Both the position numbers and the translations under genes were made by a program. 62,713 nt of DNA, taken from assembly GCA_012735465.1 (NCBI GenBank), contig JAAYHJ010000025.1, positions 1 to 62,713 on the forward strand. The letters run 5' to 3'. The notes below the pieces were generated by a model. It made no database searches and was not told the origin of the DNA. It worked only from the letters and a program-made list of their open reading frames with translations. The stretch comes from Clostridiaceae bacterium. Lineage in GTDB: Bacteria; Bacillota; Clostridia; SK-Y3. Numbering within the stretch: position 1 is the stretch's first letter; each line of letters begins with the position of its first letter. Positions 22,436 through 33,636 of this stretch are shown piece by piece.

Positions 22436-23842
22436 TTACATGGTCAAAACTCCATTAGGTGTTTCCATCAACATGAGTATTTCTTCCTCTTTTCCTGTTT
22501 CTGCATTAATGTAAATCAAAAAATCTCGATCGTTAAACTTGCCCTGGAACTCATAGCACAGTACTTCCCTCTTGGATTCAAGGGGAATCACTGCCAAACG
22601 GGTTGATTCAATTTTGAGCCGCGGATTAATTTTTTCCCTTGCTTCTTCCTCGCTTATTTTAATGGCAGGCAGTTCCCTTTTATCCTGGTGAGTCATAAGG
22701 TATCCCTGGCTTTCAAAACCTACAATTTCACCGTTATCCAGCGCCACCTTAACCTTTATAAGATCAGGATACATTACAATTTCATCTTGCACGTAGGCAT
22801 AGTTAATGGTAGCCACACCGTTATTACGCAGGTAATAGCTTTCCTTCATATTGGGAAACCCTTTGGAATCAAGAAATTCCTTGACTCGCTGCTTTGCCTG
22901 GTCAATATCAAGGTTTGTATCGGTAACATTTTTATTATCCAGCATCCAAAGTATATATCCGTTTACCTTTGTAACCGCAAGGGTGATTGAGCGTTCACTC
23001 CCTTTTTTCCCGCTTTCCGTATCTGTTTTGACGGTAAAAGTGTAGGCAGGAATACTCCCATTGCTTTCGCCCGTATATTCAATATTTTTTGCTTTTTCCT
23101 TACCCAAAAAGGCTATTGCCTTTTCCTTCGCCTGTTCCTCGGTCAGTTCCTTACCTCCCTTTAGCATCCGCGGTTCTATTCTATCAATATGGTCGGAAAA
23201 GGGGCCGTCATAAATCAGGGACGGGTATTCCTGGAATTCCTTTTCTATATTTTCCATATGGGTGACAGCAATGTTTTTTGCTTCTTTCTGAAAAAATCTA
23301 TTTCCTTTCTGTTTCAACTCTCCAAAACGAATTGTTCCGTTATACAATTCCTTTTGCATGTTGGCAAGCCCTTCACTTAAGCTCTTGGAGTACTTTTGCA
23401 GTTTCTCCAATTGGGCATATTCTTTATCCGTAATCTCTATACCGTCCATTGCCTTTTTTGAAAGGCTGTAAGTATAATCACCCACCTGTGCTAAAAACTT
23501 AGATGTCTTGTCCAGTTGCACGTGGGAAATGGGCAACTGTCCTAAATTTGCCTGGGCAAAAGCTGCTTTTCTCCATATTTCAGAAGACAGGACTGCCATC
23601 TGCCGGGGACTGTTTACCAGCATTCCTTTTTCCAGCGACACTTCAATATCTTCCACATAACCTACCAATTCATGAAAGGGCCTGTTATACTGGTTTTCCA
23701 CATAGTTCCTGTATTCCAATGCCCGCTTGTACTGATAAATACCGGCCCCTGCAATAACAGCAGCCGTTACCAGCACAATGCTGTACATGTGCCTGTCGCT
23801 TAACCGGCGTTTAAAGTCCAGTAATTTATCCCTTATACTCAT
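22436..23842 (-). CDS. ypeB: Germination protein YpeB
   Basis: 468-aa spore protein required, in Bacillus, for stable assembly of the cortex-lytic enzyme SleB. One N-terminal membrane segment (about 19-36) anchors it; the region about 40-210 is helical (many Leu/Glu/Lys/Gln), and the C-terminal half holds two to three PepSY-like units (KGGKELTEEQAKEKAIAFLG; NLDIDQAKQRVKEFLDSKG; KISEEEAREKINPRL). Length matches the family. It lies 11 bases after sleB, the conserved pair. ATG with AAGGAGG upstream; its own terminator follows. Confidence 0.93.
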   Translation of the reverse strand: MSIRDKLLDFKRRLSDRHMYSIVLVTAAVIAGAGIYQYKRALEYRNYVENQYNRPFHELVGYVEDIEVSLEKGMLVNSPRQMAVLSSEIWRKAAFAQANLGQLPISHVQLDKTSKFLAQVGDYTYSLSKKAMDGIEITDKEYAQLEKLQKYSKSLSEGLANMQKELYNGTIRFGELKQKGNRFFQKEAKNIAVTHMENIEKEFQEYPSLIYDGPFSDHIDRIEPRMLKGGKELTEEQAKEKAIAFLGKEKAKNIEYTGESNGSIPAYTFTVKTDTESGKKGSERSITLAVTKVNGYILWMLDNKNVTDTNLDIDQAKQRVKEFLDSKGFPNMKESYYLRNNGVATINYAYVQDEIVMYPDLIKVKVALDNGEIVGFESQGYLMTHQDKRELPAIKISEEEAREKINPRLKIESTRLAVIPLESKREVLCYEFQGKFNDRDFLIYINAETGKEEEILMLMETPNGVLTM

Positions 23843-23853
23843 TATTTACCTCC

Positions 23854-24360
23854 TTATTTTGCAAATTTATGTTTCCCAATAGTCTTTACAACTTGTCGGC
23901 TATAAATCCACTTATTAGTAGTCTTGGCAGGATTGTAATAATAAATAGCTCCCCCGGTTGGGTCCCATCCGTTCATAGCATCTTCACATGCCTTATATAC
24001 GGTACTTTTTGGGTCAATAGGTACATTTATCTGCCCGTCGGATACGGCGGTAAATGCTCCGGGCTGGTATATGACACCGGCTAATGTATTTGGAAAGGAT
24101 GGATGCTTTACCCTGTTTAATATAACGGCCGCTACAGCCACCTGTCCTTCATAAGGTTCACCCCTTGCTTCACCGTTTACACACCGGGCTAATAGCTGCA
24201 CATCATCAATTTTTCCCCTTTCCTGGGCATAAGCTGCCCCAGGTGTATTCATGCCTCCATCCCTATTGGACTGAAAGTTTTTGCTTATACCGTAATACAA
24301 TAATGCTACACCTATGCAGATTATAAAGGCAATCATTGCAATATACGGGTATTTTTTCAC
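23854..24360 (-). CDS. sleB: Spore cortex-lytic enzyme, SleB-type hydrolase domain only
   Basis: 168-aa protein with an N-terminal membrane segment (about 6-25) and a single Hydrolase_2 domain (about 50-168): LARCVNGEARGEPYEGQ with the catalytic Glu of this family, AVILNRVKHPSFP, GAIYYYNPAKT. SleB proteins are lytic transglycosylases that open the spore cortex at germination. Bacillus SleB is about 300 aa with an N-terminal peptidoglycan-binding domain; that domain is missing here, making it closer in size to CwlJ, but the pairing with ypeB argues for SleB. Starts with GTG after AAGGAGGGG. First gene of the pair. Confidence 0.9.
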   Translation of the reverse strand: MKKYPYIAMIAFIICIGVALLYYGISKNFQSNRDGGMNTPGAAYAQERGKIDDVQLLARCVNGEARGEPYEGQVAVAAVILNRVKHPSFPNTLAGVIYQPGAFTAVSDGQINVPIDPKSTVYKACEDAMNGWDPTGGAIYYYNPAKTTNKWIYSRQVVKTIGKHKFAK

Positions 24361-26646: not shown

Positions 26647-28248
26647 TTATTCCCGCACCTCTAAAATAAGCAGTGTCATATCGTCCAGCATCTCAACATG
26701 TTGAGATTCTTCCCCATATTTAAAATTATATGTATCCCTTAATATAATATTTTTTAATTCATCAATATCCTTATCCATATTACTTAGAACCATCGTTTCA
26801 AGCCTGTGACCCCAATACATTTCACCGGATTCATCGCATATCTCCGCCACTCCGTCGGTAGCAAGCACTAACCGGTCCCCGGGTTTGAATATGCCTACAT
26901 GCTCCAAATATTCGGTTTTATCCACCCAATTGCTGATGGGAATACCGGAAGCCATCAGGTAATTGCATCCCTTTTCATTGAAAAGAATCGGCACCACATT
27001 GTGCCCTGCATTGGCATAGCAAATTTCCTTAGTATCCACGTTTATAATGGCATAAAACATGGTTATGTACATATCTATTCCAAAGTCAATTTCATTAAAT
27101 TTTTTATATAAATGCTCCAAAACCTTAGCCGGTGAAAGCTCGTCCTTCTTTATCGTCTGGCGTAAAAATAAGGTAAGCATGGAAGCGGGAACACCATGAC
27201 CCGAAACATCTGCAATATATACCCCAACGTGGCAGGAATCAATGGAAAACACATCAAAAAAATCTCCACCAATGGCTTCACAGGGCCTATAGACATAGCT
27301 GTAGTTAACCTTCCCCTCGTGCATCTTTTTAGGAAGCAAGCTGTACTGCATTTTTCTTGCAATACGCAAATCTTCATTATGCTTCTTATTTTGAGCCTTA
27401 ATCTTTTCCTCAAGTTTTTTTGCTTCGGTCACATCCCTTAATACTTCCACTATTGCTTCTACTTCCCCATCCAGATTTTTTAATGGAGAGCTGACAACAG
27501 AATAAATCCTTCCTTTTATCACTTCTTCCTTATGTACAGAAAAGGATTGAGAAGCTGCCTGTTTTGATACGCATTGGCTGCATGCCTCGGTTCTACCTAT
27601 GACTTCAAAGCACTTCCGACCTACCAGGTAATACCCCAGTTCCTTTCTCATCTTATCATTCACGTAAATAATATTATCGTCCATGTCAATTACCCGCACC
27701 CAATCCTGCATACCATTTATGATGTTTTCTATAAAGTGAACATGTTCTTCAATTGATATGCTGGTCTTTTTATAATAAATCATTTCTTTCAGCTTTATTA
27801 CATGTTGCTCTTCTTCCCGTATAATTGAATACAGGCTCTTTTTTATATCCTCATCATTTATATTGCGCACAAGCTCCGAGTAAAACTTTATTGATTTATA
27901 TTCTTGGTCCAGTGCATCGCCTATTATTTCTTTAAAACCCTTTCCTTCAACAGTATAACTTTCTTCCTTTGGCAATATAAAATCAATTGCCGATGATATG
28001 AGCTTTCTAACCCCATGATTATCAATAATATCGTATTTATGGTTTTGTCCCCTGCGCTCCAAAGCCTCTTTATAGTGCTTATTAAATGTTGCCGCATGAT
28101 CCCCTTCTTCTTTTGCAAGGGCAAGAAAGATTTGTTTCTTTTCTTCGTCACCTTCCATGCTTTTCAATAACTGATTATAGAGGTTTGCACCACATTCTTC
28201 CAATGAAATTGCAATTTTAAATATATCCAGTTCAGAAAGGTATTCCAT
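26647..28248 (-). CDS. Ferritin-like diiron / PAS / SpoIIE-type phosphatase fusion
   Basis: 533-aa soluble signalling protein. Residues 1-155 form a rubrerythrin/ferritin-like four-helix unit with a full set of candidate iron ligands: Glu17/18, Glu48-x-x-His51, Glu116, Glu146-x-x-His149. Residues about 165-285 are a PAS domain with Cys213, Cys223 and Cys226 (KCFE...CSQC). A short coiled coil leads to a PP2C-like SpoIIE/RsbU phosphatase (about 305-533) with the metal-binding motifs GGDFFD, DVSGHG, ATDGV and DDMTL. RsbU-type phosphatases dephosphorylate anti-anti-sigma proteins; the front end suggests oxygen, peroxide or iron as the input, which is inference. The start is the ATG after GGGGGAG. 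No anti-sigma gene adjoins it; monocistronic, divergent from yyaC. Confidence 0.88.
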   Translation of the reverse strand: MEYLSELDIFKIAISLEECGANLYNQLLKSMEGDEEKKQIFLALAKEEGDHAATFNKHYKEALERRGQNHKYDIIDNHGVRKLISSAIDFILPKEESYTVEGKGFKEIIGDALDQEYKSIKFYSELVRNINDEDIKKSLYSIIREEEQHVIKLKEMIYYKKTSISIEEHVHFIENIINGMQDWVRVIDMDDNIIYVNDKMRKELGYYLVGRKCFEVIGRTEACSQCVSKQAASQSFSVHKEEVIKGRIYSVVSSPLKNLDGEVEAIVEVLRDVTEAKKLEEKIKAQNKKHNEDLRIARKMQYSLLPKKMHEGKVNYSYVYRPCEAIGGDFFDVFSIDSCHVGVYIADVSGHGVPASMLTLFLRQTIKKDELSPAKVLEHLYKKFNEIDFGIDMYITMFYAIINVDTKEICYANAGHNVVPILFNEKGCNYLMASGIPISNWVDKTEYLEHVGIFKPGDRLVLATDGVAEICDESGEMYWGHRLETMVLSNMDKDIDELKNIILRDTYNFKYGEESQHVEMLDDMTLLILEVRE

Positions 28249-28429: not shown

Positions 28430-29053
28430 GTGACTGTTAATGATTTACCACACACAATATATGTTAATAGTACCCAACCCAGTGCAGCCAAGGAGCTTTC
28501 ACAGGCCATTTTGTCCTTTTTTAGCTCACCTTCCATCCCCTTTTACGATACGATTATAATATTATGTATTGGAACCGACCGCTGTACCGGAGACTGCTTA
28601 GGCCCTCTTGTGGGGTACAAGCTTAAAAACCTGCCGTACAATAATGTGCATGTGATAGGTACCTTGGAAGAACCGGTACATGCCAAAAATTTAGCCGTGT
28701 ACACTGCCCAAATAAAAAAAGCCTTCCGCCACCCGCTCATAATAGCAGTGGATGCCTGCCTGGGAAAAGCTGAACACGTCGGGTTTATTGCCATATCCAA
28801 TAAACCCATCAAGCCCGGCGCAGGCTTAAACAAGGATTTACCTGAAATAGGGGACATATCCATCGCCGGGATTGTTAATTCCTATGGGCTTATGGATTAT
28901 GTCATACTGCAAAATACCCGCCTGAATACGGTTATGAAGATGTCCGATTTAATTGCTTCAGGAATTAAATATGTACTCTGGAAGCAAAGCCAGCATCTCA
29001 TCTGCGTGCCAGATAATAAAAACGATGTGCTGGATAACCTGTCAACCGGTTAA
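28430..29053 (+). CDS. yyaC: Spore protease-like protein YyaC (DUF1256)
   Basis: 207-aa protein of the YyaC family, related in fold to the germination protease GPR and to hydrogenase-maturation peptidases. Signs: IILCIGTDRCTGDCLGPLVG (about 43-62), GTLEEPVHAKNL, IIAVDACLG and KPGAGLNKDLPEIGDISIAGIVN. YyaC is conserved in endospore formers and expressed in sporulation; substrate unknown. The start is a GTG eight bases after TTTGGAGG. Single gene on the plus strand, convergent with the RND operon. Confidence 0.9.
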   Translation: MTVNDLPHTIYVNSTQPSAAKELSQAILSFFSSPSIPFYDTIIILCIGTDRCTGDCLGPLVGYKLKNLPYNNVHVIGTLEEPVHAKNLAVYTAQIKKAFRHPLIIAVDACLGKAEHVGFIAISNKPIKPGAGLNKDLPEIGDISIAGIVNSYGLMDYVILQNTRLNTVMKMSDLIASGIKYVLWKQSQHLICVPDNKNDVLDNLSTG

Positions 29054-29244: not shown

Positions 29245-32200
29245 TTAAACTGCCTGGGACGGGATGCTCTTTTCTTTGCGTCCAAACAATCTTTTAACCC
29301 ATCTGCCAAAATCATCAAATAAAGTATATAGCACAGGTATAAACACAAGGGTTAACAAGGTCGAAAAGGTCAGTCCTCCCATTACCGTAACAGCCATTGG
29401 AGCCTGCAACTCTGAGCCTTCACCGATCCCTAAAGAAAGGGGTACCAATCCCAGCACGGTGGTAAGAGTAGTCATAAGTATGGGGCGCAGTCTTACCGGT
29501 CCTGCCTTATAGATGGCTTCGTCCCTTTCCATTCCCCTGCTTCTCAATACATTAATATAGTCTACCAGTACAATACCGTTATTTACAACAACACCTGCCA
29601 ACATAACTATACCTATAAAGGACGGGACACTAAAGGGCATCCGGGCAGCGGACATGGCAAACGCCACTCCTATGACAGCCAGCGGTACCGTAAACATTAT
29701 TGTAAAGGGGTGCAGCAGGGACTCAAATTGGGATGCCATTATCATGTATATCAATATAATTGACAGCAGCAATATGAGCCCAAAACCTTCTATAGCCTCT
29801 CTAAGGTCTTCGTTTTCACCGGCCAGTTCTATAGTATACCCTTGCGGCACTTTTATTTCATCCAGCTTATTTCGTATATCAACAAATACACTGTTTGAAT
29901 CCCTTCCGCTTATATCACCGGTGACACTAACCTGCCGTACCTGGTCGCTCCTTGAAATACTTGCCGGTGCATCTTTAATGATAATATCCGCCAGTTCATA
30001 AAGAGGCACCTGCTGACCCGTAGGACTCATTATAAGTATTTCTTCCAGGTCTTTTAAATCCTTTCTTGAGCCGGATTCAAAGCGTACCTTTACATCAATT
30101 TCATCCCCGGATACCTTGTACCGGGTAGCAGTCTGGCCCATCACTGCCGTTTGTACCGTACTGGCAATGGTATAGGCAGAAATGCCATACTGGGAAGCTT
30201 TATTGCGGTTTATTTTTACCTGGGCTTCAGGAACCGTATCTGCAATAGAGGAAGAAACCTCCCGTGTACCCTCTACTCTTTTCACTGCATCCGTTACCTG
30301 TTCCGCCAGCTGTTCCAATACGTCCAAATCATCCCCATTAATATTTATTGTAATGGGCTTGGATGAGCCTATCACAGACATATAGCTTATTTTTTCCACA
30401 GCGATTTTTGCACCGGGAATAACTTGCACTTTGCTGCGTAGCTCATCTAAAATCTCATCAATACCTCTTTCACGGTTCTCTTTTTTGCCCACTGATGCAT
30501 AAATGGTACCTGTGCTTGAATCACCGTCACTTCCATGCATAACAAATATATATTCAAGCTCTTTTATTCCTTCAACTTCTTTTGCAACGGCATCAACGGT
30601 TTTTGCTGTTTCTTCCAGCACCGTACCCTTTGGCATTTCTATTGTTACCGTAAACATTCCCATATCCATATTAGGGAAAAATTGCACTCCTGTAAACAGT
30701 GAAGCACTAACAAGGCTCAATACCAACAACAATACCGTACCCGTTATTACCGTCTTGCGATGGCCCAGGGCCCAGCGCAACAGTTTTTTGTAGCTTTCTT
30801 CCACTCCTTTAAAAAACCTGTTAAACCAACGGTCGATAACTGCAATGGGAGTACGCTTCCTTTGCAAGTCTTCCATTGTCTCAACTTTTAACATTTTGGA
30901 TGCCATCATAGGAACCAGTGTCAATGCAATAACCAGCGAAGAAACCAGGGAATAGGTAACGGTAAGCCCCAGCTCCTTAAACATTTCAATTGCCATATTA
31001 TCCCTTACAAAGGCAATGGGCAGAAAAACAGCAATTGTGGTTAAAGTTGAAGCAGTTACTGCCATGGCAACCTCGTTACTTCCTTCCCTGGCGGCATCAA
31101 TTCGGCTAAAGCCTTCTTCCCGGTAGCGGTATATACTTTCAAGCACTACAATGGAATTGTCTACCAGCATTCCAATCCCCAGGGCCAATCCTCCAAGGGA
31201 CATGATATTGAGCGTAATACCGCTGAAATAAATCATTATAAATGTAGCAATTATTGAAATCGGTATGGAAGTACCTATTATAAAGGTGGTCCTTATATTT
31301 TTTAAAAACACAAAAAGAATAAGGATTGCAAGTACACCGCCCACCATTGCATTATTGGCTACGTTTCCAAGGGACTGTTTTACATATGTCGACTGGTCAA
31401 AAATGGTCTCAAATTTAACATCGCTTAACTCTTTTTTTATTTTATCTATCTCCGCATTAACCTTGTCAGCCACTTTTACGGTATTAGCACCGGATTCCTT
31501 GCTCACTGCCAGCAAAATACACGGTTTATCATTCATGTACGACCTGCTGGTCACATCCTTATAACTTTGCCGTACCTCCGCAATATCTTTTAAATGTATT
31601 ATACCTCTGGCGGTTGCAATGGGAAGATTCTTTATTTCTTCAACATCCGAAAACTCTCCTATTGTTCTTACGGTAAACTCGGTCTTCCCCTCTTCAAGCT
31701 GTCCGCCGGGCAAATTCAAATTTTCAGCCTGCAGCGCCTGTTTTACCTGAGTTAAAGACAAACCATAACCTTCCAGCTTTTGAGGCAGTATATCTATCTT
31801 TATTTCTTCCTCCACGCCCCCTGTGATATCCACCGCTGCAACCCCTTCAAGCCTTTCCAGCCGGCTCTTTACCTTGTCCTCCACCAGGGTCTTCAAACCG
31901 GCAAGATCGTCTCCGTAGGAAACAGCAAGTTGCATAACAGGTATCATGTTTACATCATATTTTAAAATTATGGGGTCCTGTACATCATCCGGGAATGCAG
32001 ATTTTATCATATCCACCTTTTCACGCATCTGCAGTGCGGCATAATCCATATTGGTACCCTGGGTAAATTCCACCATTACCATGGATACCCCATTGGAAGA
32101 AGTGGAGGTCACCTTTTTAAAATTTTCCACCGTACCCATCACTTCTTCAATAGGCTTTGTGATAATGGACTCAATTTCCTGGGGACCGGCTCCCTGATAA

Positions 32201-32349
32201 TTAGTAATAACCACCGCCGCCGGAAAGGTTATATCCGGAAAAAGGTCCAGGTTGAGGCTGCGCAGTGAAACCACTCCGAGAACCAAAATCATCATGACAA
32301 GCATAAGAACGGTAACAGGCCTCTTAATAGCTAAATCTGAAATCTTCAT
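29245..32349 (-). CDS. RND efflux transporter (AcrB/MexB-like, HAE1 family)
   Basis: 1034-aa inner-membrane proton-driven exporter with the usual twelve helices: helix 1 at about 10-30, a large outer loop, helices 2-6 at about 335-480, helix 7 near 535, a second outer loop, and helices 8-12 at about 855-1010. The proton-relay Asp motif GMLVDNSIVVLES in helix 4 is intact, as is the N-terminal RPVTVLMLVMM. It starts immediately after the adaptor's stop codon (ATG adjoining TAA) with AGGAGGG inside the adaptor gene. Gram-positive RND pumps such as SwrC export lipopeptides or drugs without an outer-membrane channel; none is encoded here either. Substrate unknown. Confidence 0.95.
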   Translation of the reverse strand: MKISDLAIKRPVTVLMLVMMILVLGVVSLRSLNLDLFPDITFPAAVVITNYQGAGPQEIESIITKPIEEVMGTVENFKKVTSTSSNGVSMVMVEFTQGTNMDYAALQMREKVDMIKSAFPDDVQDPIILKYDVNMIPVMQLAVSYGDDLAGLKTLVEDKVKSRLERLEGVAAVDITGGVEEEIKIDILPQKLEGYGLSLTQVKQALQAENLNLPGGQLEEGKTEFTVRTIGEFSDVEEIKNLPIATARGIIHLKDIAEVRQSYKDVTSRSYMNDKPCILLAVSKESGANTVKVADKVNAEIDKIKKELSDVKFETIFDQSTYVKQSLGNVANNAMVGGVLAILILFVFLKNIRTTFIIGTSIPISIIATFIMIYFSGITLNIMSLGGLALGIGMLVDNSIVVLESIYRYREEGFSRIDAAREGSNEVAMAVTASTLTTIAVFLPIAFVRDNMAIEMFKELGLTVTYSLVSSLVIALTLVPMMASKMLKVETMEDLQRKRTPIAVIDRWFNRFFKGVEESYKKLLRWALGHRKTVITGTVLLLVLSLVSASLFTGVQFFPNMDMGMFTVTIEMPKGTVLEETAKTVDAVAKEVEGIKELEYIFVMHGSDGDSSTGTIYASVGKKENRERGIDEILDELRSKVQVIPGAKIAVEKISYMSVIGSSKPITININGDDLDVLEQLAEQVTDAVKRVEGTREVSSSIADTVPEAQVKINRNKASQYGISAYTIASTVQTAVMGQTATRYKVSGDEIDVKVRFESGSRKDLKDLEEILIMSPTGQQVPLYELADIIIKDAPASISRSDQVRQVSVTGDISGRDSNSVFVDIRNKLDEIKVPQGYTIELAGENEDLREAIEGFGLILLLSIILIYMIMASQFESLLHPFTIMFTVPLAVIGVAFAMSAARMPFSVPSFIGIVMLAGVVVNNGIVLVDYINVLRSRGMERDEAIYKAGPVRLRPILMTTLTTVLGLVPLSLGIGEGSELQAPMAVTVMGGLTFSTLLTLVFIPVLYTLFDDFGRWVKRLFGRKEKSIPSQAV

Positions 32350-33636
32350 TTAATTGTTCCCTCCTACCACTTGTACCTTTTCCCCATCTACAATAAAGCT
32401 CTGGCCTTTTAATATGACCCTTTCTCCTTCTTTAAGCCCGTTTACTATTTCATAGTTCTTTTCATCCTTCAGGCCTGTTGTGATTTCTCTCTTTTTAGCA
32501 ATATCCCCCTCAAGTACGTATACATAATTTTTTCCGTCTTCTGTTAACACCGTCTCAATGGGAACTAGGAGCACATCGTCTTTTTGCTCAATAACAATAC
32601 TTATTTCTGCAAACATACCCGGTTTTATTTCATGATTCTCGTTTGGAATAGTCACTTTTAACGGGTATCCCACACTGTTTCCCGTAGCGGAAGGGCTGAG
32701 CGCATCTACAGTGCCTTTGAACGTTTTGCCTCCCAGGGCATCTATCTTTACAATAACGTCCTGTCCCTTTGCAATACTGTTTATAACCCGTTCGGTTACG
32801 GTGGTCTCTACTACCACATTGTCCATATCTACAATGGTATATGCCGGGGCCTGGGGAGAAACCAGGGCTCCCACTTCCACATTTTTAAAGGCAATAATAC
32901 CTGAAATAGGCGCTTTTACATCCGAATCTTCCAGGGCATCCTGCGCCTGCTTACGCTGTATTTCAGTTGCTTCAATGGCTGCCACCGCCTGTTCCGCTCT
33001 TAACTGGGCACTTTGCACCGACTCGGATAAGATTTTTTCTTTCAGTAGATTATAAGAATCTTTTAATCTGTTATAATTAATCTCCGCATTTGAAAGGGCA
33101 TCTTTCAAATTGTTCATATCCTTTTCGGAAAGCGCTCCGGCTTCATATAACACCTTATTTTTTTCATAATTATCTTTTGCATTGTTATAGGCAATCTCTG
33201 CCTGTTTTAAGGCTGCTTCCATTTCCATAAGCTGCTGTTCCTGGGCACTGCCCTTTGCCTGTTCCAGGGCAAGAACCGCCATCTCATAATTTGTTTTGTC
33301 AGTTTTTAGTTTGATGTCCAGTTGTTCTATCTGGCGGATTAAATCTTTTTTATCCAGTGAAAAAAGCACTTCGTCTTTTTGTACCTCATCACCAATTTCC
33401 TTTAGCACGCGTTCGGCTTTACCTGCTGCCATGGCATATACCGTCACTTCCTTTGACGGCTTTATTTGTCCCGATACGGTATATGTAGACTGAATCCCCC
33501 CTTTTACCACATTGCAGACTTCTACAGGAGTCAGCGGTATGGAAACTTCTTCCTGTGTTTTTTGCGCACATCCCTGCAGAAGCCCTGCTATCATAAATAC
33601 TGCAAGAACAAATACTGCAAATTTTCTACCTCTCAT
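32350..33636 (-). CDS. Lipoprotein periplasmic-adaptor (membrane fusion) subunit of the RND pump
   Basis: 428-aa adaptor of the HlyD/AcrA type. Lipoprotein signal 1-22 with lipobox LLQGC. Order: beta-strand half (about 40-85), biotinyl-lipoyl-like first half, a long helical hairpin (about 90-240; Gln/Glu/Ala/Lys-rich), second lipoyl half (VKAPISGIIAFKNVEVGALV), beta barrel (about 270-350) and membrane-proximal domain to the end. The lipid anchor holds it at the outer face of the membrane beside the transporter. It shares an operon with the pump with no gap. ATG after GGAGGG. Confidence 0.93.
   Translation of the reverse strand: MRGRKFAVFVLAVFMIAGLLQGCAQKTQEEVSIPLTPVEVCNVVKGGIQSTYTVSGQIKPSKEVTVYAMAAGKAERVLKEIGDEVQKDEVLFSLDKKDLIRQIEQLDIKLKTDKTNYEMAVLALEQAKGSAQEQQLMEMEAALKQAEIAYNNAKDNYEKNKVLYEAGALSEKDMNNLKDALSNAEINYNRLKDSYNLLKEKILSESVQSAQLRAEQAVAAIEATEIQRKQAQDALEDSDVKAPISGIIAFKNVEVGALVSPQAPAYTIVDMDNVVVETTVTERVINSIAKGQDVIVKIDALGGKTFKGTVDALSPSATGNSVGYPLKVTIPNENHEIKPGMFAEISIVIEQKDDVLLVPIETVLTEDGKNYVYVLEGDIAKKREITTGLKDEKNYEIVNGLKEGERVILKGQSFIVDGEKVQVVGGNN

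Follow-up and report, generated by a model that had tools for sequence, protein, structure and literature searches.

The window analysed here (the whole stretch of 62,713 nucleotides) contains, at positions 26647..28248 of the minus strand, a gene for a protein of 533 amino acids, in which translation and Pfam searches identify a ferritin-like domain, a PAS domain, a helical linker and a PPM (SpoIIE/RsbU-type) phosphatase. The coordinates given in the original prediction are correct and the strand is minus; the start codon is the ATG at 28248, with a ribosome-binding site just 5' of it (AGGGGGAG, graded good), and the stop lies at 26647. To one side the gene is flanked by the divergent yyaC (spore protease-like), which marks the locus (28430..29053, plus strand; TIGR02841, 2e-61), and to the other by a small Veg-like gene. 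With these as its neighbours, the gene has no adjacent partner kinase or STAS gene within the window, as had been stated from the outset; a search of the window for a SigB-like promoter pattern (GTTTN{12,16}GGGTAA; 1.2 matches expected by chance) likewise finds no match, an outcome that chance alone could also give. Nearby, and judged by eye, are genes resembling the ypeB/sleB spore-germination pair (22436-24360) and, beyond yyaC, genes for an RND-type efflux pump and a membrane-fusion protein (29245-33636); a similar efflux/membrane-fusion gene pair is found near the orthologue in genome G002.

Domain searches place Rubrerythrin, PAS and SpoIIE all above their curated Pfam cut-offs, both in the window protein and in 4/4 orthologues (genomes G001-G004; 53-63% identity, full length), bearing out the predicted layout of four-helix unit, PAS domain and phosphatase. 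The Pfam E-values, and the occurrence of the same layout in five genera, exclude a chance origin for the three-domain protein. A full-length AlphaFold2 model, calculated from a shallow alignment of four sequences, has a mean pLDDT of 52.6 and is poor outside the ferritin domain.

Residues 1-160 (27769..28248, minus strand) make up a rubrerythrin/ferritin-like four-helix domain; PF02915 matches residues 8-156 (E 5.7e-10; 40.1 bits against a cut-off of 22.8), thus covering the full four-helix unit. The AlphaFold2 model of residues 1-164 is fairly confident (mean pLDDT 80.8, pTM 0.80), with helices at 6-30, 35-67, 105-129 and 133-157. On re-examination of the Foldseek matches to the full-length model, the top structural match is TM1526 (PDB: 1vjx), a solved ferritin-like diiron-carboxylate protein, with 147 residues aligned (Z 17.7, rmsd 2.5); with the ferritin domain alone as query, TM1526 is the sole match with E <0.001. 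Six candidate ligand positions align with the same residues of this structure: Glu17 (28198..28200), Glu48-x-x-His51 (28096..28107), Glu116 (27901..27903) and Glu146-x-x-His149 (27802..27813), all encoded on the minus strand. Each is invariant in all five proteins compared, window protein and orthologues alike, as is Glu18, adjacent to Glu17. Family match, predicted helices, invariance and structural match all agree with the N-terminal four-helix unit that had been proposed, and, judged by sequence, its set of candidate diiron ligands is complete. Classical rubrerythrins also carry a rubredoxin [Fe(SCys)4] domain; a Pfam scan taken up to E = 1 finds no rubredoxin match in the 533-residue protein, which, judged by its sequence, is not a classical rubrerythrin.

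The PAS domain follows at approximately residues 172-285 (27394..27735, minus strand), with PAS_4, PAS_9 and PAS_8 above cut-off and the matches to PAS_4/PAS_9 spanning residues 179-277. It contains three cysteines at exactly the positions predicted (Cys213, Cys223 and Cys226; C-x9-C-x2-C; 27571..27612, minus strand), the triad being present in 36/38 family members, ferritin-less forms included. PAS domain and phosphatase are joined by a helical linker (approximately residues 278-310; 27319..27417, minus strand), similar in position to the coiled-coil linkers already described (PMC12143880) and modelled as part of a long helix (262-302) in the full-length prediction, at low pLDDT. The PPM/SpoIIE-type phosphatase domain itself (26650..27318, minus strand) matches PF07228 at residues 340-531 (E 2.4e-31, 109.6 bits) and, in a Foldseek match, B. 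subtilis SpoIIE (PDB: 5mqh; Z 14.0, rmsd 4.1, 172 residues); D329, D347, G352, D465, G466, D522 and D523 are invariant in 38/38 relatives. With both the Pfam match and the metal-binding aspartates in place, the description of a full PP2C/SpoIIE phosphatase was apt, and this RsbU-type domain looks to be active. SpoIIE proper has a length of about 800 amino acids and its own long N-terminal region; the 533-residue protein is not SpoIIE, having ferritin and PAS domains at its N-terminus, and a separate 802-residue SpoIIE-domain frame is present in the genome. No GAF domain is matched in the protein by Pfam.

Surveying genomes for the same domain order, we find the full fusion in five, all of the window's family (5/6 members); the order as a whole is sampled by seven genomes, six from this family plus one other, and the fusion was not found in the family's sixth genome nor in that one other, both 61% complete. 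A profile of the ferritin domain run against 391 Clostridia genomes (E <= 1e-9) gives 42 matches, namely the 5 fusions, in frames of 532-559 amino acids, and 37 frames of 134-236 amino acids, with no other fusion of this ferritin subfamily among them. The fold (147 residues) and the E...ExxH...E...ExxH set are common to the window domain and to TM1526-type proteins (PF02915; 1vjx), but those of the Clostridia survey stand alone, whereas the window domain is part of a signalling protein. A protein search of 391 Clostridia and 398 phylum genomes reveals only ferritin-less forms outside the family at E <= 1e-40, and a search of viral contigs with the ferritin alignment found no relative; a scan of named genomes returns three full-length orthologues, one in Petroclostridium sp. 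X23.

A PAS-phosphatase of ~370 amino acids without the ferritin domain (the ‘short form’) is widely distributed among Clostridia, its gene often being divergent to yyaC; in this arrangement yyaC adjoins 5/5 fused loci and, of the short-form loci closer to them, the majority (flanks of ~1.5 kb, some ended by contig ends). The short form looks ancestral. The topology of a 38-member PAS-phosphatase tree allows for the ferritin domain to have been gained just once (support 64/90), and the ferritin domains of the fusions group as a single clade (support 100/99); the core of cysteine-bearing PAS and phosphatase is the older, widespread protein, with the ferritin domain alone particular to the window's family. 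We considered and rejected a local origin for that domain, as the tree does not unite it with the family's stand-alone proteins (two sampled). In two genera a stand-alone ferritin-like gene lies ~29 kb from the fusion gene (G002:C18:177880 and G003:C1:3438522).

A PF01740 search of the window's genome identifies two STAS proteins, both within sigma operons. The first, SpoIIAA, is encoded on contig C11, 5' of genes for a kinase and for a sigma factor scoring above the equivalog cut-off for SigF. The second, on C53, is RsbV-like and carries a YIDSTGLG motif; its operon lies downstream of lysS and runs STAS, RsbW-like kinase, sigma factor and second HATPase, the sigma factor passing the SigB/SigF/SigG subfamily cut-off and failing the SigB equivalog cut-off. 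A similar rsbV-rsbW-sigma module adjoins lysS in G002, G003 and G311, and gyrA in G036, G068 and G296. The second HATPase gene (RsbW/RsbT-like; L116 8908-9348) is positioned 3' of the sigma gene, and likewise in G002 and G003. Whilst the original prediction left the target of the phosphatase open, there is here a candidate, in the form of an operon that co-occurs with the phosphatase family.

Three lines of evidence point towards RsbV: co-occurrence, elimination and replacement. As the operon is on a separate contig, the case for a partnership is built from elimination and co-occurrence. Across the 391 Clostridia genomes, the sigma factor is found in 55/59 with the PAS-phosphatase versus 86/332 without (Fisher p 1.6e-23, a value inflated by the relatedness of the genomes); counted by family, which is the safer figure, it is found in 16/17 versus 18/69 (p 2.9e-7). 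Among the 59 are five genomes of family f40 that match our query (P0001) mainly in the phosphatase domain and can be counted with less certainty as having the PAS form, and four exceptions in which a renewed search gave no close match, G018 and G167 being incomplete genomes. G036, G068 and G296 (99-100% complete) are without SpoIIE; the short form is the only RsbU-type phosphatase in each, and RsbV the only STAS protein. Besides the fusion, the SpoIIE-domain proteins encoded by G001, G002 and G004 comprise SpoIIE and a phosphatase of ~390 amino acids, so that no rival RsbV phosphatase was found there, barring a weak 266-residue match in G004. Finally, in seven examined SigB-positive genomes without the PAS form, another RsbU-type phosphatase, MASE3-PPM, is seen in its place; nine genomes with MASE3-PPM also have the sigma factor, seven of these nine being without the PAS form, and it is possibly an alternative RsbV phosphatase in SigB-positive Clostridia. 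Examples of this fusion of a MASE3 membrane-sensor domain to an RsbU-type phosphatase are at L117 3823-5253 (contig C42 of the window's genome), L012-L018 and L035. Taking these lines together, we infer with good support that the phosphatase acts on RsbV, and the short form is likely to be the RsbV phosphatase of many Clostridia.

B. subtilis RsbP is a PAS-PPM phosphatase of RsbV that serves the energy-stress arm of SigB (PMC12143880, PMC7522486). The window protein shows the same order of PAS domain, helical linker and PPM domain, has RsbV as its proposed substrate and has an RsbV-RsbW-SigB-type circuit in the same genome; it differs in its additional N-terminal diiron ferritin-like domain and in the C-x9-C-x2-C of its PAS domain. 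Our preferred reading, to which we give a little under an even chance, is that an RsbP-like phosphatase in the RsbV-RsbW-SigB switch has here gained an N-terminal diiron (ferritin/rubrerythrin-type) sensor; against this, the MASE3-phosphatase, which the window's genome has alongside the PAS form, could serve RsbV instead.

For RsbU, RsbP and RsbZ, activation has been shown or modelled to proceed via ordering of a helical linker that dimerises the phosphatase domains, with exchangeable sensors at the front (PMC12143880); by analogy, the window protein fits this linker-driven plan, ferritin and PAS forming its front end. Rubrerythrins are mainly peroxidases with a lower O2-reductase activity (PMC11481553), such that a redox- or iron-dependent change in the helical bundle would be a reasonable input, and the diiron centre may plausibly sense O2, peroxide or iron. 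While the anaerobic cell is at rest, the phosphatase would be off and its diiron site reduced (or, should iron be the signal, at one particular state of occupancy), with RsbW keeping RsbV phosphorylated and sequestering the sigma factor. Reaction of O2 or peroxide at the site, or loss of iron, would alter the packing of the ferritin domain, a change relayed through the PAS domain to a dimeric helical linker so that the two phosphatase domains engage; phosphorylated RsbV would be dephosphorylated at the serine of its DSTG motif and capture RsbW, leaving the sigma factor free to switch on stress genes. That the ferritin-type diiron domain gates the PPM phosphatase directly, coupling O2, peroxide or iron state to SigB-type activity within one protein of an anaerobe, is a proposal we hold a little more tentatively. 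The original idea, of a link from oxidative or iron state to a partner-switching sigma factor, is better supported for having a specific target, the RsbV-RsbW-SigB-type operon, in the same genome.

The protein could instead be an RsbV phosphatase for SigB in which the older PAS domain reads the signal, for instance through Cys213/223/226, and the ferritin domain serves as a dimerisation module or as a local peroxidase/iron-binding domain. The presence of the cysteine-bearing PAS-phosphatase without ferritin in many Clostridia, and the near-complete retention of its three cysteines, are in keeping with this, as is the N-terminal four-helix domain that dimerises B. subtilis RsbU (PMC12143880); a role in dimerisation only, however, would not readily explain why six metal ligands are invariant among orthologues, and we regard this arrangement as unlikely, if worth serious attention. 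We consider it improbable that the substrate is some other STAS protein with a non-sigma effector: family f54 has five genomes in which the PAS-phosphatase locus includes, ~1 kb past yyaC, a STAS gene whose NSAG motif is of the phosphoserine type, and one of these genomes, G114, has the short form and this STAS gene nearby but no SigB-type sigma factor, indicating that the substrate may not always be RsbV, yet the only two PF01740 STAS proteins of the window's genome are both in sigma operons. The NSAG-containing genes are at L134 6223-6558, L135 3867-4202, L136 8672-9007, L137 3242-3595 and L138 9317-9655. Least probable is action on SpoIIAA, tying oxidative or iron state to sporulation (SigF), since the conservation of yyaC, a spore gene, as divergent neighbour of the phosphatase gene, and the place of SpoIIAA as one of the genome's two STAS proteins, are set against a SpoIIE already present for SpoIIAA, the co-occurrence of the phosphatase with a SigB-type sigma factor and the persistence of the short form in genomes without SpoIIE, where no yyaC was found in the flanks (~1.5 kb). 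This persistence favours general stress control over sporulation; of the two outputs first suggested, sigma-factor control gains from the presence and co-occurrence of the SigB-type operon, and sporulation is weakened.

The role we prefer, that of an RsbP-like phosphatase with a ferritin-type front end, resembles that of RsbZ, which in the anaerobe C. difficile activates an rsbV-rsbW-sigB circuit; RsbZ, however, has tandem GAF domains in place of ferritin-PAS, and so the window protein is not RsbZ (PMC12143880). Hemerythrin-domain sensors such as DcrH likewise employ a non-haem diiron helical bundle, in DcrH as the O2/redox input of a bacterial signalling protein, but hemerythrin ligands are five His, a Glu and an Asp, and the output of DcrH is a chemotaxis receptor (PMC9388753). 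The exchangeable sensor domains named for such phosphatases are RsbU-N, PAS, GAF, receiver and HAMP (PMC12143880), a list beyond which ferritin would be a further type. The switch is thus a known, SigB-type one, and the candidate ferritin sensor domain is without an earlier report that we could find, a literature search of partial coverage yielding none that joins rubrerythrin, SpoIIE and PAS domains.

Reverse rubrerythrins and flavodiiron O2 reductases are among the targets of SigB in C. difficile, and a 2024 paper describes both the signal that reaches the SigB phosphatase of this species and the receptor for it as still unidentified (PMC11481553). With a candidate O2/peroxide/iron sensor and a phosphatase output in one chain, the question of how SigB of an anaerobe responds to oxygen becomes testable on purified protein, and the short form, as likely RsbV phosphatase, can be tested in a laboratory strain. 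Within a sample of draft, partly incomplete genomes, a structure prediction from a shallow alignment and a substrate assigned by inference, it is well supported by the sequence comparisons, as regards both the parts and the likely target, that a few anaerobic spore-formers have joined a ferritin-type domain to a widespread stress phosphatase. A different pairing is seen in G002, where the 390-residue SpoIIE-type phosphatase adjoins a protein that combines PAS, Fe-S and Fe-only hydrogenase domains (L149 3540-6430); the pair, in appearance a hydrogenase-type sensor and a phosphatase dedicated to it, has similar-looking counterparts, with phosphatases of ~390 residues, in G001 and G004.
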